52,356 bases of DNA, taken from positions 1-52,356 of the IMG/VR virus record IMGVR_UViG_3300046794_000144; one strand, written 5' to 3'. Of the stretch, positions 5,307 through 51,218 are shown piece after piece. Position numbers and translations under genes: made by a program. The notes beneath the pieces are model-generated. The model was given only the letters and a program-made list of their open reading frames with translations. It made no database searches and was not told the origin of the DNA. Origin of the DNA: a virus. The stretch's first letter is position 1. Every line of letters begins with the position of its first letter.

Positions 5307-5504
5307 ATGAGCGCGAAAACCGATGTTGAGGCGATACGGCTGATAGGCGATGAGGTTGTGCGGCTACTCATGCTTCCCGAGGAAAGGCTTGAGGTTGAGG
5401 TCCGCCATGGGCTCAAGCTGATTGCTGACCTGGCTCGATGGCGTGACCTTGCTTATGGGGTAGAACCTCGCGCCTCTGGTAGGTCTTTGTCAGGTCCGCG
5501 TTAA
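5307..5504 (+). CDS. Possible small rightward protein antisense to RT end
   Basis: 65 aa, beginning MSAKTDVEAIRLIGDEVV and helical throughout (LMLPEERLEVEVRHGLKLIADLARW). It fills the only sizeable gap in the leftward block (5214-5412), then overlaps the last 92 bp of the reverse transcriptase on the other strand. AAAGGG lies about 11 nt upstream. It may be a real small gene, or the 5' remnant of a gene truncated when the DGR entered. Confidence 0.35.
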   Translation: MSAKTDVEAIRLIGDEVVRLLMLPEERLEVEVRHGLKLIADLARWRDLAYGVEPRASGRSLSGPR

Positions 5505-6624
5505 CTGTGTTGCCGCGCTTGAGCACAACATTCGCCAGGGTGGCGCGGTCCTTTTGACTGTGGCTGGCCTGACTGAGCAGGCCGAAGTAGCTGTTGGCGG
5601 TCTCGCGCAGATCCTCGGTCGGCGCCGCGGTGGTACGCTTCAGCGCTTGGGCAAGTGACCGCTTGCGGGTGGTGCGCCGCCAGGGCTTGATGACGTGCCC
5701 AACGAAGTCGACGCCCCGGTCCACGGGCTGCAGGATCGTCTTCGTGGGGTTCAGCTTGGCGCCGAGCCTTGGCAGGAACGCTTCGACCTCGGCCAGCCAC
5801 TGGTTGAGCTGCTGCGGCGACTCATGCAGGAGCACGAAGTCATCGACGTACCGGATGTAGTGCTTGGCCCGCAGTGTGTGCTTGGCGAACTGGTCCAGGG
5901 CATCGAGGTAGACGTTGGCGAAGAACTGCGACGACAGGTTGCCGATTGGCAGGCCGAGGTGAGCAGGCTGCGCAACCAGGCGCTTGTGCTGCGGTACCCG
6001 GTTGAACAAGTGCGCCGGGCTTCTGGTCTCGTAATCCTCTCGGGGGTCGTGCATGAGTATCTGCGTGGCCAGGGCCAGCCACCAAGGTTCGGTTATCTTC
6101 GCGGCCAGTTGCTTGCGGAGCACTGCCTTGTCGATAGCGACGAAGAAGTTGGCCAAATCGAGCTTGAGATACCAGCAAGGCTTTGACCAGTTCTGCGAGG
6201 CGCTGCGGATCTTCGATTCAAGGCGCTTGGCGGCGTACAGCGTGCCGCGCCCTGGGATGCACGCGCAACTGTCCGCTATGAAGCTGGCGTAGAAGCGCGG
6301 TGCCACATGGTTGTACAGCAGGTGGTGGACGACGCGGTCCCGAAAGGCTGCTGCCCATACTTCCCGGGCTTTCGGTCGGGTGACTACGAAGCAGATAGAT
6401 CGGCCTGGCCGGTAATTGCCGGCGGTCAGGTCGTTGTACAGCTCGAAGAGATTCAGTTCCAGTTCCTGCTCGAACCGCCGGGCGCTCGCCGTGTTGCGCT
6501 TGCGTCGTCGGCAGTCGTAATACGCTTGAACCAGATCCTCGAACTGTAAGGGTGCAACACTGGAATCTGCGGACAGGGCGCACGCTGCGCTCGTTGTTCT
6601 TGTTGTCGTTGTTCTGGTTGCCAT
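5413..6624 (-). CDS. DGR reverse transcriptase
   Basis: Reverse-transcribes the TR RNA with errors at adenines, producing cDNA that replaces VR sequence. 403 aa. Palm motifs: YLKLD with the first catalytic Asp at 156, YVDD at 259-262, and IGNLSSQ at 227-233. The last matches the IGxxxSQ signature separating DGR RTs from retron and group II RTs (QGxxxSP). No integrase or maturase domain is seen. The only usable ATG I find lies inside the TR, in a different frame from the VR reading frame, so the first about 20 residues are TR-encoded. It is the last gene of the DGR, after avd and TR, as in the Bordetella BPP-1 DGR. Confidence 0.95.
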   Translation of the reverse strand: MATRTTTTRTTSAACALSADSSVAPLQFEDLVQAYYDCRRRKRNTASARRFEQELELNLFELYNDLTAGNYRPGRSICFVVTRPKAREVWAAAFRDRVVHHLLYNHVAPRFYASFIADSCACIPGRGTLYAAKRLESKIRSASQNWSKPCWYLKLDLANFFVAIDKAVLRKQLAAKITEPWWLALATQILMHDPREDYETRSPAHLFNRVPQHKRLVAQPAHLGLPIGNLSSQFFANVYLDALDQFAKHTLRAKHYIRYVDDFVLLHESPQQLNQWLAEVEAFLPRLGAKLNPTKTILQPVDRGVDFVGHVIKPWRRTTRKRSLAQALKRTTAAPTEDLRETANSYFGLLSQASHSQKDRATLANVVLKRGNTVNADLTKTYQRREVLPHKQGHAIEPGQQSA

Positions 6625-6666
6625 CGCTAAAGTCCATGTTGTAGGCGTTGTTGGCTGAGAACTGCG
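6566..6666 (-). repeat. DGR template repeat (TR)
   Basis: 101 nt between avd and the RT. Read on the minus strand, it is packed with AAC/AAY codons in the VR frame (SANNAYNMDFSDGNQNNDNK), which maximises diversity when A is randomised. It aligns without gaps to VR1 (7259-7359) and VR2 (7953-8053). VR1 differs at 13 and VR2 at 12 sites, all at the 33 coding-strand adenines and none at the other 68 positions. The right-hand identical stretch ending GTCCGCAGA is the likely IMH. Confidence 0.95.
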
Positions 6667-6836
6667 ACCTGCCGTGCTATCTACATCGCCCCGCCGAAGG
6701 AGCTCCGATCAGCGGGGAAACTGCGCCGGACCTTCGCGGACGCTTTAGACCGTAGGTATCCGTGGGTGCGCCTGGCGGTGGCCTTTTGGCCAGCGGCACG
6801 ACCAGATTCAGCGCACAGAAGAGAGGGCCTTGACCC

Positions 6837-7193
6837 TCAAGTAGCGGGCGCGGTTGCGGAGCTTCTTTTCCAGGCATTGGCCTGTTTGCCCACCGATGCA
6901 GTGAGCTTCATAACCTTTGCGTGCTGCGGGATGCTCATGAACTGCATGTCCACCATCGTTCGCAGCAACTGATTGATGACCTGAATACTTTCCAGCAGCG
7001 TATTCAGATGAGGGCGCTTATCGCGGGCCATGTTTGCTCGGCCGATCATCCTCAGAACCTCAAGGCACTCGTCCAGAATCTTGACGCCTACCAACTGCTT
7101 CAAATCGCGCGGAATGTTCCGCACTAACTGAATCGCGACGCCAAGTAGTCCCTCGGCTGATTTGTGGATATCCAGATCCATGTGCATGGCCAT
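6837..7193 (-). CDS. avd: DGR accessory variability determinant (Avd)
   Basis: 118 aa, all-helical and moderately basic (NIPRDLKQLVGVKILDECLEVLRMIGRANMARDKRPHLNTLLESIQVINQLLRTMVD). This fits the four-helix-bundle Avd family, which forms a pentamer that binds the RT and the TR RNA and is needed for adenine mutagenesis in BPP-1. It sits between VR1 and TR, the canonical place. AAGGGA precedes the first of three clustered ATGs. About 170 bp between it and the TR hold no gene; this segment is probably part of the structured DGR RNA. Confidence 0.85.
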   Translation of the reverse strand: MAMHMDLDIHKSAEGLLGVAIQLVRNIPRDLKQLVGVKILDECLEVLRMIGRANMARDKRPHLNTLLESIQVINQLLRTMVDMQFMSIPQHAKVMKLTASVGKQANAWKRSSATAPAT

Positions 7194-7211
7194 GCGAAGT
7201 CCCTTAAAGCG

Positions 7212-7227
7212 AGTCGCTGCCGCGACT
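7212..7227 (-). other. Hairpin downstream of VR1
   Basis: AGTCGC and GCGACT arms with a 4-nt loop (GGCA on the coding strand), 31 nt past the VR1 end. In BPP-1 a short GC-rich hairpin or cruciform with a 4-nt loop just downstream of VR promotes target recognition. A weaker GGCC-GTCA-GGCC hairpin (7911-7922) lies 30 nt past VR2. Confidence 0.5.
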
Positions 7228-7243
7228 TAAATGAATGATTGAA

Positions 7244-7852
7244 TTACTGAATAAGTTCTCTGCGGACAGGGCGCACGCCGCGCTCGAGGCCCTTGTAGTC
7301 GCTGTCCTGGCTGCCATCGCTAAAGTCCATGAAGTAGGCGTAGTCGGCTGAGAACTGCGTACTCGACACATACCAACCGGTACCAAATGCCTCCGATCCG
7401 CCCTCTTGAAATTCCGTCAAGGCGGTCTGAGCGGGATAGGTGTCGGTGTATGGGTAGCCGACCGGTACGCTGGATGGGTTGTCCCCGTCGCGCCACGAGC
7501 AATAGTTTTCCTGCTTGGTCGGTTTGAGGTGTCGGTATTGCAACTCTTGTACGTCACGCGCCGGGACACCCCAGTCGGCATGCCCATCAATGACCATGGC
7601 TACCACCTGTTGTGCGAGCTCGCTGCCGGCCGCTGCGAAAGCCTCAGTGTTCGAGCGACTGTCGGTGTAGCTGCGGGCGCCGGCAACATCGACGCCGTAG
7701 CAGCCGATGACACCGCGAAGCTCGAAAGCCTTTGGCGCTTGGATATTTCGGTACAGCTTGCCATCTTCCTGGGTAATACCTATGAAGTGTCCACCGCCAT
7801 AGACCTGACCAATTACGAGATCGAGTTGCGAAGTAGCTGCCAATGCGTTCAT
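7244..7852 (-). CDS. DGR target protein 1 (C-type lectin-like, VR1)
   Basis: 202 aa. The last about 38 residues (from SSTQFSADYAYFMDFSDG to VRPVRRELIQ) are the VR1-encoded variable region. The layout, with a C-terminal variable segment that starts after a Trp/Tyr-rich stretch (GTGWYVSSTQFS) and ends VRPVRR, matches CLec-fold DGR targets. Variable positions relative to TR include Asn to Asp, Tyr, Phe, Ser, Gly and Leu. I see no signal peptide, lipobox or membrane segment. RBS AGGAAG. It lies after a terminator-like hairpin that separates it from target gene 2. Binding partner unknown. Confidence 0.9.
   Translation of the reverse strand: MNALAATSQLDLVIGQVYGGGHFIGITQEDGKLYRNIQAPKAFELRGVIGCYGVDVAGARSYTDSRSNTEAFAAAGSELAQQVVAMVIDGHADWGVPARDVQELQYRHLKPTKQENYCSWRDGDNPSSVPVGYPYTDTYPAQTALTEFQEGGSEAFGTGWYVSSTQFSADYAYFMDFSDGSQDSDYKGLERGVRPVRRELIQ
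7259..7359 (-). repeat. DGR variable repeat 1 (VR1)
   Basis: Gap-free 101-nt match to the TR (offset 693) with 13 substitutions, all at TR adenines of the coding strand. The most 3' substitution (A to G, Ser to Gly in ERGV) bounds the IMH to about the last 20 nt. Confidence 0.95.
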
Positions 7853-7876
7853 GGGTGCTTCCTATTTTTCGGGCAA

Positions 7877-7898
7877 CAAAAAAGGCGCTGGTGCGCCT
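7877..7898 (-). terminator. Intrinsic terminator between the two DGR targets
   Basis: On the minus strand AGGCGC-ACCA-GCGCCT is followed by a T6 run. It lies between the stop of target gene 2 (7941) and the start of target gene 1 (7852), so leftward transcripts may be attenuated before VR1, avd, TR and RT unless antiterminated. Confidence 0.7.
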
Positions 7899-7940
7899 GG
7901 TGTCGTTGATGGCCTGACGGCCTGATTGAAGGAATGAGGA

Positions 7941-8543
7941 TTAAATAAATCGTCTGCGGACAGGGCGCACGCTGCGCTCGCTGGTCTTGTAGGCGTAGTG
8001 CTGGGTGCCAACGCTAAAGCCCATGTGGTAGGCGAGGTTGGCTGAGAACTGCGAGCTCGTGTAGTAATAAACGTCCTGGTCGAACTTGACCGGGCAGTTG
8101 AGCCAGCCCTGATGCATCTCGGCGGCGGCGCCAAGGTAGAAGTCAGTGTGACCGTCGGCGGTGTATTCGGAAGCGGCGATAGCTGCAGGGTGGCTGCCTT
8201 CTTCCAGCAGGATCTTGGTGTTGGCCAGGCCGTCGCGCTTGTCGGTGGCCTTGGATGTTTCGCCGTGGCGACCCCATACGTAGCGCCCAGCATCCTTCGC
8301 GGCGAAGATCAGGTAGTGCTCTGGCACGTTGCCGTGGGCTGCGACGTAGCCGCCGTTGATACCGCCTTCACCGGGCCAGTACTCGCCATATGCAGGGGCG
8401 TCGGCCGATGTCAGCGGCTGAACATTCGTCGCCGGTGGTAGAGTCTGGGTGAGCATGCCGAGCGCGAACAGCTGCACCATGCGCTCTGCGGGGCCTTTGA
8501 TCTTGAAGTCATCAATTTCCACTGAAATCATTTTGGCTTTCAT
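7941..8543 (-). CDS. DGR target protein 2 (C-type lectin-like, VR2)
   Basis: 200 aa. The C-terminal about 38 residues, from SSQFSANLAYHMGFSVG to VRPVRRRFI, are VR2-encoded; the rest shares little obvious sequence with target 1. Centre: YGEYWPGEGGINGGYVA and YVWGRHGE, aromatic and glycine-rich as in CLec-type targets. The N-terminus (MKAKMISVEIDDFKIKG) is not a signal peptide. GAGGTAAACGAA precedes the ATG, 20 nt after the ndpA stop, so it shares the early leftward transcript. It is separated from the tail genes by about 36 kb, so a tail-fibre role cannot be read from position. Confidence 0.9.
   Translation of the reverse strand: MKAKMISVEIDDFKIKGPAERMVQLFALGMLTQTLPPATNVQPLTSADAPAYGEYWPGEGGINGGYVAAHGNVPEHYLIFAAKDAGRYVWGRHGETSKATDKRDGLANTKILLEEGSHPAAIAASEYTADGHTDFYLGAAAEMHQGWLNCPVKFDQDVYYYTSSQFSANLAYHMGFSVGTQHYAYKTSERSVRPVRRRFI
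7953..8053 (-). repeat. DGR variable repeat 2 (VR2)
   Basis: Gap-free 101-nt match to the TR (offset 1387) with 12 substitutions, all at TR adenines. Most substituted sites or bases differ from those in VR1, so the two repeats were diversified independently from one template. Confidence 0.95.
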
Positions 8544-8562: not shown

Positions 8563-9570
8563 TCAGGCGGCGGCGCGCTTGAGTTGTTCAGTGAGTTGCG
8601 TTGGCAGGCCTCGCAGTGTCAGGGTCCCGCCTTCCTGGTCAAACTTGATCTTGTCGCCCAGCAGGTGCTGCTCGAAGCTGATTGACAGCCCTTCGGCCCG
8701 GCCGGTGAAGCGCCGGAATTTGTTGATGGTCTTTTTGTCCGGCGGCAGGGTCTCAGAAAGCCCGTAGTCCTTAGCCTTGATGAAGTCGTAGAAACTGCGC
8801 GGCTGCTCTTCGTCGATCAGTCCTGATAGCTCATCGAGGGTGATCGGCTCGCCCAGCTTTGCCTGGGCCATGGAGTAGCTGACCAGTGCGTGTGTCTTCT
8901 CGCGGGCCGATTCTTCTGGCAGATCCTCGCTTTCAACAAAATCGCTGAACGCCTTGAGCAAGGTCCGGGTTTCGCTTGGGCCGTCGATCCCTTCCTGGCA
9001 GCCGATGAAGTCGCGAAAGTACTCGCTGACCTTGCGGCCTTGCTTGCCCTTGATATACGAGATGTACTGCTTCGACTGCGGATTACTCTTCCATTCGCTG
9101 AGGTTGATACGTGAAGCCAGGCGGATATGATCAAGGTCCAGGCGCTTGACCGTCATCAGGTTCAGCTCTTCGGTCATGGTCACCGCTTCAGTTTCCTGCA
9201 CTAGGGCAATGACCAAGTATTCGGTCAGGCCTTGCTGGTAATGGCAGAAGAGGGCGTGCCCACCGGTGGTTAGGTTCGACTCTTCCATAAGCTTGGTCAG
9301 GTGATCGGCGGCGGTGACGCTGAAGTTGAAGAAGTCGAAGCTGCCGGCCAGGTATTTGCCAAGCCACCCGCTAAGTGGGTGAGCGCCTGACTCTGCATGA
9401 AAGAAGCCCCAGGCTTTGCCGGTGGCGGCGTTATAGCTTTCGTTGAACTGGCTCATCAGGTCATCGCGGGCCTGGCTTTCGACCTGCTCCGCACCGCCGA
9501 GGTGAAGAATGGCCGGGCTGCCGTCGGGCTTCTTGTCGATCTTGTGGATTACGCTGTGGAGTACAGGCAT
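8563..9570 (-). CDS. Nucleoid-associated protein (YejK/NdpA family)
   Basis: 335 aa, full length for the 37-kDa nucleoid-associated family. Typical elements: N-terminal [18 protein letters not shown], the middle [17 protein letters not shown], then [17 protein letters not shown] and [24 protein letters not shown]. The host homologue binds DNA and associates with the nucleoid. A phage copy in the early recombination block could protect or organise phage DNA or interfere with host chromatin; this is inference. RBS GAGGTAAACGCA. It is directly upstream of DGR target 2. Confidence 0.85.
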
Positions 9571-44843: not shown

Positions 44844-44870
44844 CGGCCCGCCACTGAGCGGGCTTTTTTT
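44844..44870 (+). terminator. Terminator before spike gene, copy A of repeated element
   Basis: CGGCCCGCCACTGAGCGGGC plus T7 or more. The same 27-nt element is at 50751-50777, in the same orientation. Confidence 0.85.
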
Positions 44871-44887
44871 TGCCTCGGGGGAAAACC

Positions 44888-47068
44888 ATGGCCTATAACA
44901 CCGGGAACCCTGTTGAGCCAAATGGCTCGACTGATCCGCGCGACCTTCGCGACAATGCCCAAATCCTCGACAAGCTCGTGAACAGCTCTGACCTTACCTG
45001 GCTTGGGCGCCTGGGGAAGGCGCTCAAGACCTGGGCAGGCATGGAGAAAGACTTTTCCGATCTACTGCTTCGCTCAGGCTTTGAATCGATCTACATCCCA
45101 TATGCCGCTGGTGCGGTAGTGGATCGTGCCACGCAGCTGGTACAGCGCGACGGCGATCTCTACCGTGTAACGAACCAAGCTGATCTTCCCCTGACTTTGT
45201 CGGGGACGTGGGCTGCTGACGCGCCAAAGCTCACAGCTGTAGCCGATCAGGGGCTACGCTCAGCTCTCGCTGGCCCGGCCGGTACTACTATGGTCGGTCG
45301 GCCGAGTGGGACGCTCGAAGACTCTCTTCTTCAGTTCGACAAAACCCTGTTGCCTGGCTTCCTGAAGCAGCAAGGCAGCGTTCTCAGAACTCTGTCAGGT
45401 TCTACGCTTGGAGATGTCAGCCAGTTTTCCAGAGCTCTTGCGGCTGGACTAGTGAAGATCGTTATTGCTGGCGACAGTATCGCTGAAGGGAAAAGTCAGG
45501 TTAACCCTGATGATTCCTGGGTTATGGTTTTCGTGCGGGCTCTTCGTGCGGCGTATCCTGGTGTGACGTTCGTCGTCGCAAACATGAGCCTTGCTGGTCG
45601 AGGGACGGGCAACCTGGCAAGCGATGGATATGTCGGTATAGCCGGTCCTGATAATCCGGAAGTTGGGTTTTACCAAGCTCCGGGGTCTCAGTCGACTGGT
45701 CACTGGCCCGCAGGAAGTACAATTGGAAAAACTTGGAAGGAGCACATTCGAGATCAGGCGCCAGACCTGATCATTCAACCTCTTGGAATGAATGATCTTA
45801 CCGGGACAAGCAACGACAATGCTGCTGTAACGAAACTATGTCTTGATTATTACAGAACTTTCCCAAAGGTCCCATCTGTTGCCCTCATGACTCCTATGCA
45901 GCCGAGCAATCTAATCCCTCCTTTCGATGGTTTTCAGGAGAGAATTAGAGCTAACGCAGAGATTTACAGGGGGATTTGTGCACAGTTCAATCTCACGCTT
46001 CTGGATGCCAATAGACTTTGTTTCCTGTATCGGGACGCTGTGGACATCGTCAACACCAAAGGGCATCGTCGCTTAATCGATGGATTCCCGACTGGATGGA
46101 CAAAGCTTAGCGGGTCAGGATATTCCATCTCTGGCGGCGTTCTAACCGGCAGCGGTATCACGCGCCGAGATGAAGCCTGTCGTGACGTTTACATCGATGT
46201 AGCATTCACGCTTTCGAATTACACGACAATGGTTCCTGGCGTCGAGTATCGAATGGATCTGGCCACGCCCGCCAATGCTTACACCGTGCAGATTCAAAGT
46301 GGCACGACGGTGATTTTGTACTGGCAAAGCACCGTTCTTTCCTCCGACCTTATCGCCCCCCTTGTAAATGGGGCGCCGGTGAGAATTGAGGTTAAGTGCC
46401 GTGGTGCTCAGCATAGGATTTATGTAAACAGAGCGCTTGTTCTCACCTGGTACGACTACAACAAGCTTAGTGAGGGGGCTACTGCGGTTTCAATAGATGG
46501 TGGTTCTGGGGCAATTTCGAATTACACCATGGTTAAGTTTGAGCCGCTGGCGGTTGGGCGCCAGATGTTCAGCCAGGGTGATCTGCTTGGTTATGTAAAC
46601 GACTTCGATACAAATCCAGACTCGCTTGGTGGTAGCGCTGGGAACCACCCATCAGCTCTTGGGCACTCAGTAATGTATGCCGACGCATGTTTGCCGATGT
46701 TCAGGATTCCCAGGGCGTCTGGGTCATCCGTGGCGTTCGCAAAAGCTACCGGCACAGAGAACTTCTATGGGTCTTCAGCTGGGCCATCTGCGAGAACTCA
46801 AGTTGACGGGATAAACGGTCCTCTTCTTCTCGTGAGCGGCGTTACTGGTGGCGAAATTTGCTCGCTCCAGCAAGTCGAATTGGTAGCGGGAGGAAGATCT
46901 ATCAACATCAACGTCCAAAGCACGACCTCGGCAGGAACCGCCGCAATTCTCTCGACAAACCTTGTTCTGGGGTCAGGTAGCTGGGTTGTGACAGTAAGAG
47001 CAACCCTAAGTCGAAATGCTTCTGGAGTGCTGAATGCGCTTGATGCTGTGGCGATAAAGGCGGCGTAA
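44888..47068 (+). CDS. Tail spike with SGNH esterase domain
   Basis: 726 aa. Residues 1-150 are a Pseudomonas-phage spike head-binding part (YNTGNPVEPNGSTDPRDLRD; DLYRVTNQADLPLTLSGTW). An SGNH hydrolase domain follows: S197 (GDSIAEG), N302 (GMND), H587 in NHPSALGH. A beta-rich insert lies between (about 395-555). It should bind and deacylate surface polysaccharide during infection. The D of the usual DxxH block is not seen. Base use is more A+T-rich than the tail genes upstream. Confidence 0.85.
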   Translation: MAYNTGNPVEPNGSTDPRDLRDNAQILDKLVNSSDLTWLGRLGKALKTWAGMEKDFSDLLLRSGFESIYIPYAAGAVVDRATQLVQRDGDLYRVTNQADLPLTLSGTWAADAPKLTAVADQGLRSALAGPAGTTMVGRPSGTLEDSLLQFDKTLLPGFLKQQGSVLRTLSGSTLGDVSQFSRALAAGLVKIVIAGDSIAEGKSQVNPDDSWVMVFVRALRAAYPGVTFVVANMSLAGRGTGNLASDGYVGIAGPDNPEVGFYQAPGSQSTGHWPAGSTIGKTWKEHIRDQAPDLIIQPLGMNDLTGTSNDNAAVTKLCLDYYRTFPKVPSVALMTPMQPSNLIPPFDGFQERIRANAEIYRGICAQFNLTLLDANRLCFLYRDAVDIVNTKGHRRLIDGFPTGWTKLSGSGYSISGGVLTGSGITRRDEACRDVYIDVAFTLSNYTTMVPGVEYRMDLATPANAYTVQIQSGTTVILYWQSTVLSSDLIAPLVNGAPVRIEVKCRGAQHRIYVNRALVLTWYDYNKLSEGATAVSIDGGSGAISNYTMVKFEPLAVGRQMFSQGDLLGYVNDFDTNPDSLGGSAGNHPSALGHSVMYADACLPMFRIPRASGSSVAFAKATGTENFYGSSAGPSARTQVDGINGPLLLVSGVTGGEICSLQQVELVAGGRSININVQSTTSAGTAAILSTNLVLGSGSWVVTVRATLSRNASGVLNALDAVAIKAA

Positions 47069-47140
47069 TCCATAACATTATGGCGTACCTATTCAACCGT
47101 TTATGGCAAAATGCAATCCCCTTGGAATAGTGTGGATTGC

Positions 47141-48622
47141 ATGCGCCCCTTAGCCTTTTTGATCTCGTTGTTGGCGCTGCCTGCGCTTTTTTCTGTAGCT
47201 TCTGTCTCCGGCAGCCCTCCATTGGTTCTGAAAGCCGAACCTAAGGAGGTTATCGCCTACTCGGAAGCGCCAACTCCATTTTCTGCTGAGCCGTTCCGCA
47301 TGGATCTGGCCACTTACATAAAGGCGATAGCGAGCGGCAGGGTAAAGGTTGTCTATCTTGGGGATTCGATTACTGAGGGGGTTTCGCAGGTTCGCTATGA
47401 AGACTCGTGGGCTGGAAGGCTCTCTGAGTCTCTGCGGCGAGCCAGGCCGGATGTTAAATTTGAATTTTCAAACCTTAGCCTTGCTGGGCGAGGAATTGCC
47501 CAGGTAACAAATCCTAATTATCGAGCAATGCCGGGGGCTGATAGTCCAGCTGTCGGGTTCCATCGAGACCCCTCACATGGCGGAATCTCCGATCAATGGC
47601 CATTAGGAAGTAAGGAAGGGCTGTCCTGGATTGATCAGGTTCGACTGGAGAAGCCTGATCTCGTTATTTTGGCATTTGGCATGAATGATCGTGGTAGCCC
47701 TGGCGACATAGCTAGGCTCACAAAGCAGGTTCTGAAAGATATTAAGTCCTTTGAAAAAGTCCCTTCGGTTGCTCTTGTTACTTCGATACTGCCTACGCGG
47801 AAAGTAAAATATTTCAACGACATTCAAGACGCTGTTCAAATTACAGCTGATGTATATCGGTCCATGTCGAAAGAACATAGCTTGATTTTACTCGATGCAA
47901 ACTGGCGATATCATATGCTGCGCGACGGGATTGATATCAACTCTTGGAAAACCATTACTCGTGGTCTTGATGAGTACCCTGGCAATTTCAGGAAACTGTC
48001 TGGTTTCGGGTTTGATCTTCAAGGAACACTTCTGTACGGGTACGGTGCAATCGAACATAAGATATCGATAGCAAATCTTGATGTAACGTCAGCATTCATC
48101 CTTAACGATTATGCTGAGCAAACTCCGTCAGTTTGGTACCGGGTTGATAGAAAAGACATCATGAAGTCGTATCGGGTTCAGATTGCCATGGGAAACGAGG
48201 CAATTCTGTTCTACGGTATGACCCCTATCGCTTCAGGGAAGATAGAAGCCTTAACGCCTGGACAGAAAGCAACCATTCGAGTATCAGCGATCGACGGACA
48301 CCATATCGTATGGGTTAACGGGGTTCAGGTTATTGAGGTCTGGGACTACCGATCATTCTCGAAAGGCTCGGTCATCTTGCAGACCGATGACGGTCCGATG
48401 GGAGGGATTCTTGACTACTCGCTAAAAGAGTATGTTCACGTCAAAGGCTTTACCGAGACGTATACGGAAGATCAAATGCTCGGCATCAACGACTTTGGCA
48501 TTAATCCAAATTCCCTAGGTGGGAGCGCGACAAATCACCCAAGCAACCTTGGGCACTCAGCTGTCTATCTCGGTGCCGCTTGGCCATTGATCGAGACCAC
48601 AAGGGCAGTAGAGACAAGATGA
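47141..48622 (+). CDS. Secreted SGNH hydrolase, paralogue of the spike esterase
   Basis: 493 aa from an ATG giving a clear signal peptide (RPLAFLISLLALPALFSVASVSG); an ATG at 47111 would add 10 residues. The mature protein follows the spike esterase along its length: S76 (GDSITEG), SLAGRGI, N182 (GMND), H466 (NHPSNLGH), and the beta-rich insert including YRVDRKDIMKSYRVQIAMGN. It has no head-binding domain, so it is not a virion part by itself and should act in the periplasm or outside. Confidence 0.85.
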   Translation: MRPLAFLISLLALPALFSVASVSGSPPLVLKAEPKEVIAYSEAPTPFSAEPFRMDLATYIKAIASGRVKVVYLGDSITEGVSQVRYEDSWAGRLSESLRRARPDVKFEFSNLSLAGRGIAQVTNPNYRAMPGADSPAVGFHRDPSHGGISDQWPLGSKEGLSWIDQVRLEKPDLVILAFGMNDRGSPGDIARLTKQVLKDIKSFEKVPSVALVTSILPTRKVKYFNDIQDAVQITADVYRSMSKEHSLILLDANWRYHMLRDGIDINSWKTITRGLDEYPGNFRKLSGFGFDLQGTLLYGYGAIEHKISIANLDVTSAFILNDYAEQTPSVWYRVDRKDIMKSYRVQIAMGNEAILFYGMTPIASGKIEALTPGQKATIRVSAIDGHHIVWVNGVQVIEVWDYRSFSKGSVILQTDDGPMGGILDYSLKEYVHVKGFTETYTEDQMLGINDFGINPNSLGGSATNHPSNLGHSAVYLGAAWPLIETTRAVETR

Positions 48623-48626
48623 TAAG

Positions 48627-48656
48627 AGGGGCCGTAGTAGCGGCCCCTTTTTATCA
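48627..48656. terminator. Bidirectional terminator between convergent genes
   Basis: AGGGGCCG-TAGTAG-CGGCCCCT with flanking T-rich sequence between the secreted esterase and the opposing acyltransferase. Confidence 0.8.
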
Positions 48657-50660
48657 TTTTATCAATATGCCGGGTGCATTTTTTTCGGCCCACTTAGCAA
48701 ATATCTTGGCGAGTTCGATACTGCCGAACTCCGAGTAATGTCCGTACTCATCACGGTAAAGCGGCATTCCGTCCTGTATTCCTGAGCACTTATTGTCATC
48801 GCACAGCAATGTGTTTTGATCGAAGAAGCGGACGCCCGGATGTGACCTGGATATCGATTCGATGACCGGCGCGTAAGCGAGATCAATCCCGGAGCGCTGC
48901 TCGTAGCTTATAGAGCAATCATTGATAGGGGCTTTGAATGGGCGCGCGAAGCATCCCTTGGCATCATATCCAAGCATTAGATGGGGGATGAAAACGATAA
49001 CAGATACATTCATCTGCTCAAGTTGGCCAATGTAGGTTTCTAGCCTGGTGGCGTACGCCGCATCAGGAGCTGGATTAAGCCCGTCGAGGATCGCGTACTT
49101 GACTGAGCCGGACTTTGTGATGATGTCGTTTATGAGATTCTTCTGTTGCAGTGGGCGATCGCCTGAACATGGGTGCGTTGTCAGCGGTGTGCCGGCTGGT
49201 GCAGTGTCAGGATTGGCTGGATCGCAGGTCCCAATCGACAGAATTGTGTTGTGCATGGTCTCGGGATTCTGTGCAAGTCCCGCGTACAGGTGGTTTGCAA
49301 AGCTGGTACCTATTAGCATCACAGTAGGGCTGGAGTCCTTGCTCTCCATGCAGAACCACCACCCAAAGTCAGCAGACCCTGCAAGCGGGTGCTTCGCCAT
49401 GCAGCTATCGTTCTTAGTGTATTTCCACAATGGCCCGACGAACTGGGAGTTGATCTTCTCCGAAAAGCGGATCATTGCACGATCGGGTATGCCATCCAGC
49501 TTATAAGTGACATAGCCGGCTACGCCCATGATCACCATCAGCGCGGAGAGCACAGCGGTTTTCATGCCGCTCCCCACATTTTTAAGTGGAGTTTCGATCA
49601 AGCGGAAGGTGAGCCATGCCAGAAGAACCGAAAGCGCCACTGCGATCCAGCGTATTTCAGGGGATGGCGTCCCGCTCTCTATGATCCGTGCGAACGTAAG
49701 CAATGGCCAGTGCCATAGGTATAGAGGGAAACTGATCAGCCCTACAAAGACGACTGCTTTATTGGAGAGGATGATCCGGTTGAACCAAGCATGGGGGCCA
49801 GCCGCGATAATAAGTACTGACCCGACAGTAGGAAGAAGTGCCCACCAGCCGGGGAACTGGTTATTTTTCGTGACCAGGGAGAACGCCAACACCAGCATTG
49901 CCATGCCGGAAAATGATTGAGCGTTCCGAAGGAGCTGGTTTGAGCTCCCCCTCCAGGACGGGAACAGCTTGCTTTTGTTCATGGTTACGTAGGCCAAGAA
50001 CGAACCAGTAAGAAGCTCCCAAAATCGCGTTTGCGGTGAATAGAAAACAGATACTGCATCTGTTTTTATATTGCTAATATTTAGCCAGAAAGAAATGGCG
50101 GCTACTGCAATAGTTAGGAGTAATGGGTTGAATCGTATCTTCCAGGCGGTCCATAGAATCAGAGGCCAGATTAGGTAGAATTGCTCCTCGATACCAAGCG
50201 ACCAAAGATGAAGAAGTATTTTGGTCTCTGCCGAGTTGTCAAAGTATCCAGACTCATTGAGAAGTACTATGTTTGAAACAAACGCTGTACCGCCAGCGAT
50301 GTGTTTCCCGAGCTGCATGAACTCATCTGCAAACAGAGAAAACCATCCAAACGACCAGCTTGCAAATAAGACCAGCAATAGCGCTGGGAATATTCTGTTT
50401 ACTCGTCTGCTGTAGAAAACACCAAAGCTGAATTTACCTTTTTCTAATCCACCGAAAATAATACTGCTAATCAGAAAACCTGAAATAACGAAGAATACAT
50501 CTACCCCGACAAATCCCCCCTGAATATATGAGGGGAATGCATGAAAAAGAACCACAGATAGAACGGCGATTGCGCGCATCCCATCAATATCGGGCCTATA
50601 TTTTGGGTGGTCCAGGTGTGCGCTCTTGGCCAGATCAGCCGGTGTAGAGGTAGATGTCAT
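48654..50660 (-). CDS. O-acyltransferase (acyltransferase-3 + SGNH, OafA/B-like)
   Basis: 668 aa from the ATG at 50660; an ATG at 50678 is possible. Acyltransferase-3 membrane domain: YRPDIDGMRAIAVLSVVLFHAFP, GVDVFFVISGFLISSII, RVNRIFPALL, HLWSLGIEEQFYLIWPLILW, SFPLYLWHWPLL; about ten helices. A C-terminal SGNH-like domain (about 425-668) has GTSFANHLY and DEYGHYSEFGS. It should transfer acetyl from the cytoplasm to O-antigen, a conversion gene as in phage D3. It is transcribed against the late genes and A+T-richer than its surroundings. Confidence 0.9.
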   Translation of the reverse strand: MTSTSTPADLAKSAHLDHPKYRPDIDGMRAIAVLSVVLFHAFPSYIQGGFVGVDVFFVISGFLISSIIFGGLEKGKFSFGVFYSRRVNRIFPALLLVLFASWSFGWFSLFADEFMQLGKHIAGGTAFVSNIVLLNESGYFDNSAETKILLHLWSLGIEEQFYLIWPLILWTAWKIRFNPLLLTIAVAAISFWLNISNIKTDAVSVFYSPQTRFWELLTGSFLAYVTMNKSKLFPSWRGSSNQLLRNAQSFSGMAMLVLAFSLVTKNNQFPGWWALLPTVGSVLIIAAGPHAWFNRIILSNKAVVFVGLISFPLYLWHWPLLTFARIIESGTPSPEIRWIAVALSVLLAWLTFRLIETPLKNVGSGMKTAVLSALMVIMGVAGYVTYKLDGIPDRAMIRFSEKINSQFVGPLWKYTKNDSCMAKHPLAGSADFGWWFCMESKDSSPTVMLIGTSFANHLYAGLAQNPETMHNTILSIGTCDPANPDTAPAGTPLTTHPCSGDRPLQQKNLINDIITKSGSVKYAILDGLNPAPDAAYATRLETYIGQLEQMNVSVIVFIPHLMLGYDAKGCFARPFKAPINDCSISYEQRSGIDLAYAPVIESISRSHPGVRFFDQNTLLCDDNKCSGIQDGMPLYRDEYGHYSEFGSIELAKIFAKWAEKNAPGILIK

Positions 50661-50750
50661 CGGTTGCCGTAGCTCCATTGTTCTTTCGCCCCATCCCCGG
50701 GGCGGCAACATGCTACCCGACTCACGCCATTTAGCGAATTTTTGAATAAT

Positions 50751-50777
50751 CGGCCCGCCACTGAGCGGGCTTTTTTT
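50751..50777 (+). terminator. Terminator before endolysin, copy B of repeated element
   Basis: CGGCCCGCCACTGAGCGGGC plus T7, identical to 44844-44870. Downstream GCCTGGAG supplies the endolysin RBS; upstream copy A has GCCTCGGGG. Confidence 0.85.
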
Positions 50778-50792
50778 CGCCTGGAGAAAAGT

Positions 50793-51218
50793 ATGCCGAT
50801 CACCGAAACCCGTGGGGTACGCAACCGCAACCCGGGCAACATCGATTACAACCCGGCCAACCAATGGCAGGGCCAGCTCAAGCCTGATCCAGCTATTGAG
50901 AAACGCTTTGCCCGGTTCGACACGCCAGAGAATGGCATTCGTGCCTTGGGCAAGTTGCTGCTGACCTATCAGCGCAAGCATGGGCTCAAGACGGTGAAGG
51001 CGATTATCAGCCGGTGGGCACCGTCGGTGGAGAACGACACGGCGGCCTATGTGCGTGCCGTGGAGGCGAACACCGGCACTAAGCCGGGCGCTGAGATCGA
51101 TCTGACCCAGGAGCCGGTCATGCGCGGCTTCGTCAAGGCGATCATCCACCACGAGAACGCAGGGTATGCCTATCCTGATGCGGTGCTGGCAGAAGGCGTG
51201 CGCAGGGCGCTGGCATGA
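50793..51218 (+). CDS. Endolysin (P5-like muramidase/transglycosylase type)
   Basis: 141 aa. RGVRNRNPGNIDYNPANQWQ and FDTPENGIRALGKLLLTYQRKHGLKTVKAIISRW match the phage structural protein P5/lytic-transglycosylase-like group. It lacks a signal peptide, so release depends on the holin. It overlaps Rz by 4 nt. Confidence 0.82.
   Translation: MPITETRGVRNRNPGNIDYNPANQWQGQLKPDPAIEKRFARFDTPENGIRALGKLLLTYQRKHGLKTVKAIISRWAPSVENDTAAYVRAVEANTGTKPGAEIDLTQEPVMRGFVKAIIHHENAGYAYPDAVLAEGVRRALA

Follow-up and report, generated by a model that had tools for sequence, protein, structure and literature searches.

The DNA analysed here (the window) is the whole IMG/VR virus record IMGVR_UViG_3300046794_000144, 52,356 nt long, and belongs to a temperate siphophage of the Pseudomonas type. 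Judged from its sequence, one of its loci is a complete two-target diversity-generating retroelement (DGR), in which a single template repeat (TR) is accompanied by two variable repeats (VR1 and VR2). On the minus strand, the parts follow one another in the order target gene 2, target gene 1, avd, a structured RNA, TR and the reverse transcriptase (RT) gene; with the stem-loops that accompany them, they are listed here in that direction:

7941-8543, minus strand: target gene 2, 200 aa, same predicted fold as target 1, VR2 C-terminal
7953-8053, minus strand: variable repeat VR2, 3′-terminal in target gene 2; 12 TR adenines changed and no other position
7883-7898, minus strand: stem-loop followed by a T run (AGGCGC-ACCA-GCGCCT-TTTTTG), downstream of VR2
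7244-7852, minus strand: target gene 1, 202 aa, predicted C-type-lectin/Lcl_C (DUF1566-like) fold, VR1 C-terminal
7259-7359, minus strand: variable repeat VR1, 3′-terminal in target gene 1; 13 TR adenines changed and no other position
7212-7227, minus strand: stem-loop AGTCGC-GGCA-GCGACT, 31 nt downstream of VR1
6837-7193, minus strand: Avd accessory protein; Pfam bAvd PF22296, E=3.5e-12; phrog_3206 'Avd protein of DGR', E=3.5e-27
6665-6853, minus strand: RT-15 structured RNA (Rfam RF03018), from the last avd codons to the first TR base; 162 bits, E=4e-39
6566-6666, minus strand: TR, 101 nt, 33 adenines, 8 of them with G as the next base
5413-6624, minus strand: DGR reverse transcriptase; RVT_1, E=2e-18; phrog_1423, E=4e-118; motifs IGNLSSQ and YVDD

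The best PDB match of the RT is the reverse transcriptase of entry 8ub7, which we take to be the BPP-1 RT structure, and the (I/V/L)GxxxSQ motif of DGR reverse transcriptases is present as IGNLSSQ. The RT start was placed at the ATG at 6624, within the TR, which is the sole in-frame ATG, GTG or TTG ahead of the conserved part of the protein. An accessory gene of the kind found in DGRs (Avd or HRDC) stands beside the TR, and the TR and its VRs differ at TR adenines only (25 of 25 differences), a type of pair recurring 299 times in relatives. Both VRs lie in frame in the 3′ part of genes whose products have a predicted C-type-lectin fold. As a DGR, the cassette is an ordinary system of a known kind; its variant features are the lineage-wide sparing of adenines followed by G (NAG adenines) and the position of a structured RNA 5′ of the TR.

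Adenine-Only Changes in Both Variable Repeats

The three repeats were compared without gaps at fixed coordinates (TR 6566-6666, VR1 7259-7359, VR2 7953-8053). A preliminary description of the locus had counted by hand 13 differences from the TR in VR1 and 12 in VR2 over 101 positions, and the ungapped comparison returned the same counts. All 25 mismatches fall on the 33 coding-strand adenines of the TR, each being a T on its plus strand, and the remaining positions are identical across the repeats (68/68 non-A positions); the automated realignment called for in that description likewise disclosed no difference at a coding-strand G, C or T. All three replacement bases occur, as had been claimed: A>G 7, A>T 5 and A>C 1 in VR1, and A>G 2, A>T 4 and A>C 6 in VR2. 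When the VRs are compared with each other, 17 positions differ, all at TR adenines. Because each VR has a separate set of changes, both targets must have been rewritten at least once. Translated in the target frame, the TR reads QFSANNAYNMDFSDGNQNNDNKNNERSVRPVRR; 10 residues are changed in VR1 and 11 in VR2, and no stop codon is created. The window yielded no third VR for this TR.

Together with the RT, Avd, the TR and two VRs at target 3′ ends, this pattern bears out the earlier reading of a footprint of mutagenic retrohoming. Alternatively, the repeats might be paralogous copies, born of gene duplication or conversion, that diverged by ordinary mutation. Duplication did give rise to the targets, which are adjacent homologues, but all 25 changes fall on one base of one of the three copies, the chance of which is (33/101)^25 = 7e-13.

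The Footprint across the Lineage

Related loci were gathered from viral contigs and bacterial genomes, and each was scanned for TR/VR pairs. In 299 distinct pairs from 147 loci, mismatch rates at TR positions are 42.7% for A, 0.16% for C, 0.27% for G and 0.62% for T, rates that, given a scan lenient to adenine mismatches, show the rarity of other changes rather than unbiased detection. Such a separation (43% at A versus 0.2-0.6% at other bases) again speaks against duplication and drift, which is refuted by the base specificity and by the pair of prophages described below, and to which we give practically no credence. The adenine changes of the lineage, 3886 in total, comprise 1804 A>G, 1410 A>T and 672 A>C. 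That A>G is the commonest change would be expected if another adenine-directed mutator, e.g., an adenine deaminase, had acted on the targets directly; however, A>T and A>C are common too, no changes extend beyond the repeats, and the locus has an RT, Avd and a template, which leaves this explanation with a negligible probability.

One genome contains two prophages, L039 and L045, whose near-identical DGRs offer a natural experiment on DGR activity. The preliminary description had suggested a comparison with near-identical prophages, and it was run in these relatives: the VRs differ at 19 + 13 = 32 positions, every one at a TR adenine and none at other TR positions, against 9 elsewhere in the alignment of 3,366 bases, eight of them falling close together within 93 bases of the RT. 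At the level of sequence, this is strong evidence of recent activity in the lineage and of independent rewriting of the two targets, and it is consistent with a transfer of mutations from TR to VR. A third locus, L092, was considered as an intermediate of L039 and L045 and dropped, as this 3.3-kb contig probably represents the two prophages collapsed as a repeat.

The possibility has also been weighed that the window DGR is intact in form, is no longer active and bears an old footprint, since a single genome sequence cannot reveal present activity. We consider this unlikely: all parts are open and conserved, very recent changes are found in close relatives, and the 68 non-A positions are all identical, whereas drift would erode them.

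Among the 136 loci with long flanks, two VRs are present in 107, three in 20 and one in 5. A third VR-bearing lectin-fold gene lies several kb upstream in L010, L032, L099, L100, L101, L106, L109, L115, L122, L125, L128, L162 and others, and as far as 9 kb from the TR in L003. In L085, the TR and VRs are almost identical (1 and 2 adenine changes) and the TR has only about 20 adenines; this template is possibly freshly homed or unusual.

Adenines Followed by G Are Spared

The preliminary description had taken the adenines of the TR as the mutable class. All changes do fall on adenines, but the class is too broad, because adenines followed by G are spared in the lineage: they are changed at 15/1625 sites (0.9%) versus 3871/7469 (52%) for other adenines, with a column-stratified odds ratio of 0.04. 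The sparing holds at every band of RT identity, reaching 0/39 below 60% identity, and G-followed adenines are less changed than the others in all of the loci (147/147). In the window itself, the 8 G-followed adenines give 16 sites over the two VRs, of which one is changed, and the remaining 25 adenines give 50, of which 24 are changed (Fisher p = 0.003).

The same sparing could arise through selection acting on the protein, and same-column and synonymous-site controls were therefore made. As expected if purifying selection were the whole cause, the conserved Gln, Lys and Glu residues of the VR hairpin are indeed specified by the protected codons CAG, AAG and GAG, and AAG lysine codons rarely change at their first A (5%), a position with no G after it. 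A context effect on this first A was rejected, since GAAG elsewhere is mutated at 43%, and its low rate is read as selection on the lysine. Nevertheless, when adenines of the same alignment column are contrasted with and without a following G, the changed fractions are 2/23 versus 135/271 in one column and 1/18 versus 180/232 in another; the loci that provide these contrasts (11 and 9, respectively) have changed 51% and 45% of their other adenines. At four-fold synonymous third positions, no adenine before G is changed (0/76) versus 35/146 otherwise (Fisher p = 1e-7), while 156/348 (45%) of the non-G-followed adenines within 12 nt of these sites are changed. The synonymous NAG sites belong mostly to one column near the 5′ end of the TR, a weakness that is eased by the observation that adenines further 5′ do change in other templates.

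A further argument comes from other DGR clades, where NAG adenines are not generally spared. They are changed at 14/37 sites (38%, all to G) in the BPP-1 set, 9/20 in the nd12 set, 17/70 in the VP58.5 set and 28/41 (all to G) in the L238 set, i.e., at 24-68% in the four other sets with enough sites; the Lagaffe and hankyphage sets, with 2 NAG sites each, hold too few to judge. Taken with the controls above, these rates make it improbable that the sparing is mere purifying selection on Gln, Lys and Glu codons. It has been reported that the BPP-1 RT in E. coli shows 0.08% G misincorporation at NAG (PMC12875486); in keeping with this, the BPP-1 set has almost no NAG changes to C. An earlier survey had argued against a strong enzymatic bias (PMC3521204).

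The sole other group that spares these adenines is that of Bacteroides phage F2 (0/24), which is the sister of the window clade in the RT tree with 100/100 support. From the evidence of sequence comparison, the sparing would be a property of the RT complex in these two clades. The YVDD motif of the window and F2 clades, where the first comparison clades mostly have YMDD, was considered as its cause and rejected, as the independent YVDD clade of L238 and relatives changes NAG adenines (28/41). Adenines preceding G make up 18% of TR adenines in the window clade versus 1.5-3% in the BPP-1 and nd12 sets. The literature consulted, to which the original RT-15 paper did not belong, contains no account of NAG protection or of RT-15, and earlier accounts may exist.

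A Structured RNA 5′ of the Template and No Spacer 3′ of It

The RT-15 match of the window scores 162.2 bits, where the gathering threshold is 82, and covers model positions 1-192 of 192. RT-15 is also present in 9/9 relatives tested, at the same site 5′ of the TR and with RT identities down to the 50s, and an alignment of 20 sequences contains 46 predicted pairs, 27 of them with compensatory changes. The Rfam entry gives no DGR role for this RNA; its fixed place in the cassette suggests that it is the DGR RNA of this lineage. No long-range pairing of the RT-15 region with the TR 3′ end or the RT start was conserved in more than 30 of 144 loci.

In the window clade, the TR runs up to or into the RT gene, and an in-frame ATG for the RT lies inside the TR in 128/147 loci. 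In the window, the RT frame is already open within the TR, and the conserved part of the RT follows about 7 nt beyond the TR end, which leaves no space for a non-coding spacer; no BPP-1-type spacer RNA (Sp/Phage_DGR, RF03022) was matched between TR and RT. In BPP-1, by comparison, a 144-nt spacer 3′ of the TR matches Rfam Phage_DGR (RF03022); the hankyphage DGR has an RT-3 RNA and a VP58.5-like relative an RT-14 RNA, both 3′ of the TR, and the TR-RT spacer in BPP-1, hankyphage, VP58.5-like and other comparison sets is mostly 114-271 nt.

Stems of at least 6 pairs occur at about +30 after VR1 in 125 of 153 VR1 loci of the clade versus 12 of 297 shuffles. The stem-loop and T run at 7883-7898 look like an intrinsic terminator, and the position of the stem-loop downstream of VR2 is less regular among relatives.

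The Target Proteins and Their Place in the Phage Genome

The AF2 model of target 1 (pLDDT 86.6) resembles most closely the C-terminal domain of the Legionella adhesin Lcl (8q4e) with VIA Z 12.0, and that of target 2 (pLDDT 91.2) does so with VIA Z 14.0 and a Foldseek E=5e-5. Target 1 also matches Lcl_C with E=1.5e-5, under the Pfam cut-off: the two proteins score 25.7 and 15.0 bits versus the gathering cut-off of 34.9 of Pfam Lcl_C (PF07603). By their models, both would have an Lcl_C-like fold, yet they stay outside PF07603 by score. The targets are, on these predictions, small C-type-lectin-fold proteins of the early region that may bind variable surface ligands. A tail-fibre role was rejected, since no tail-type domain was found and the genes lie between the CI repressor and the integrase, also in relatives.

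The window further encodes an integrase, an S24-type repressor, SSB, ERF, replication O, DnaB, terminase, capsid and tail genes. The cassette is part of the leftward early region, with recombination genes on one side and the integrase on the other, and with the tail genes far away at 37-48 kb; comparable early-region sites are occupied in the annotated relatives Haboob, Cruim01 and Magia. Target homologues are also found in the early region of PAN70 (L445) and Medea1 (L446; two side by side), where the nearby annotation includes neither RT nor Avd, and target genes may thus outlive the DGR.

A gene for the nucleoid-associated protein NA37 (8563-9570) lies directly upstream of target 2, and the target 2 fold is matched by a 571-aa viral 'Nucleoid-associated protein' (A0A8S5QER2), which suggests a natural fusion. 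A fixed link between the targets and the NA37 gene was rejected, as the two are adjacent in only 3 related loci. Among the tail-end genes are those for a 732-aa tail-fibre-like protein (44870-47068), a 503-aa GDSL/SGNH hydrolase with sequence similarity to it (47111-48622) and an acyltransferase-SGNH protein (48654-51152); these are possible cell-surface modification genes.

Comparison with Known Systems

The cassette shares with BPP-1 (mtd-avd-TR-brt) the coding-strand order of its parts, Avd, an RT with (I/V/L)GxxxSQ, adenine-only changes, a C-type-lectin-fold target with the VR at its 3′ end and a stem-loop after the VR. Unlike BPP-1, it has RT-15 5′ of the TR in place of a TR-RT spacer, YVDD instead of YMDD, and two small non-tail targets instead of a tail protein, and its lineage spares the NAG adenines that are mutable in the BPP-1 set. 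The same lineage, layout, pair of targets and early-region site are found in the Pseudomonas phages SC_8_H2H8_2017, Cruim01, Haboob, VB_PaD_phPA-G and LPPA56 and in Burkholderia phage Magia, whose GenBank annotation names an RT, Avd and a C-type-lectin DGR target. The cassette DNA of these phages is 65-74% identical to that of the window, and some loci of the lineage (20/136) have a third VR target.

One TR with two VRs in C-type-lectin domains is also known from the two-target phage DGRs nd4 and nd12 (PMC10743442). Their targets, however, differ from each other in topology and are sited among structural genes (PMC10743442); their RT is of another clade and their TR-RT spacer measures 147-255 nt. 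The F2 DGR shares the sister RT lineage, YVDD and the sparing of NAG adenines; in three of its four loci, 33-34 nt separate the TR from the RT gene, with one locus aligned to 81. It differs in that its target stands among structural genes and no RT-15 match is found.

Proposed Mechanism and Implications

The explanation that very probably accounts for the whole is a two-target DGR that miscopies adenines except before G and rewrites its two VRs independently. The RT-Avd complex would copy the RNA spanning avd, RT-15 and TR into cDNA, with errors at template adenines save those with G as their 3′ neighbour. The mutated cDNA would then replace VR1 and, independently, VR2, altering 10 and 11 amino acids, respectively, in two small C-type-lectin-fold proteins. 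By analogy, RT-15 would take over the task of the BPP-1 3′ spacer RNA, that is, bind RT-Avd and place the primer. For the window clade and F2 lineage together, we lean towards the view that the structured RNA sits 5′ of the template, that a following G switches off the adenine errors of the RT complex, and that codons ending in AG hard-wire invariant residues.

Several points weigh against this account. One G-followed adenine of the window is changed (TR 6586, VR1 7279). The window sequence records past rather than present DGR activity, no near-identical copy of its phage was found, and the role of the targets is read from their predicted fold. No RT-15 match was found in the F2 group. Moreover, spacer loss, 5′ RNA and NAG sparing are confounded on the single RT-tree branch that unites the window and F2 clades (100/100), and any of the three may have brought about the others.

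The infidelity at adenines is usually treated as a property of each template adenine. A lineage with G-protected adenines provides a natural contrast for what sets this infidelity in the RT-Avd-RNA complex, and it alters the prediction of variable residues, the window having about 25, not 33, effectively mutable adenines. In addition, a role is proposed for an RNA that Rfam lists only as 'RT-15'.

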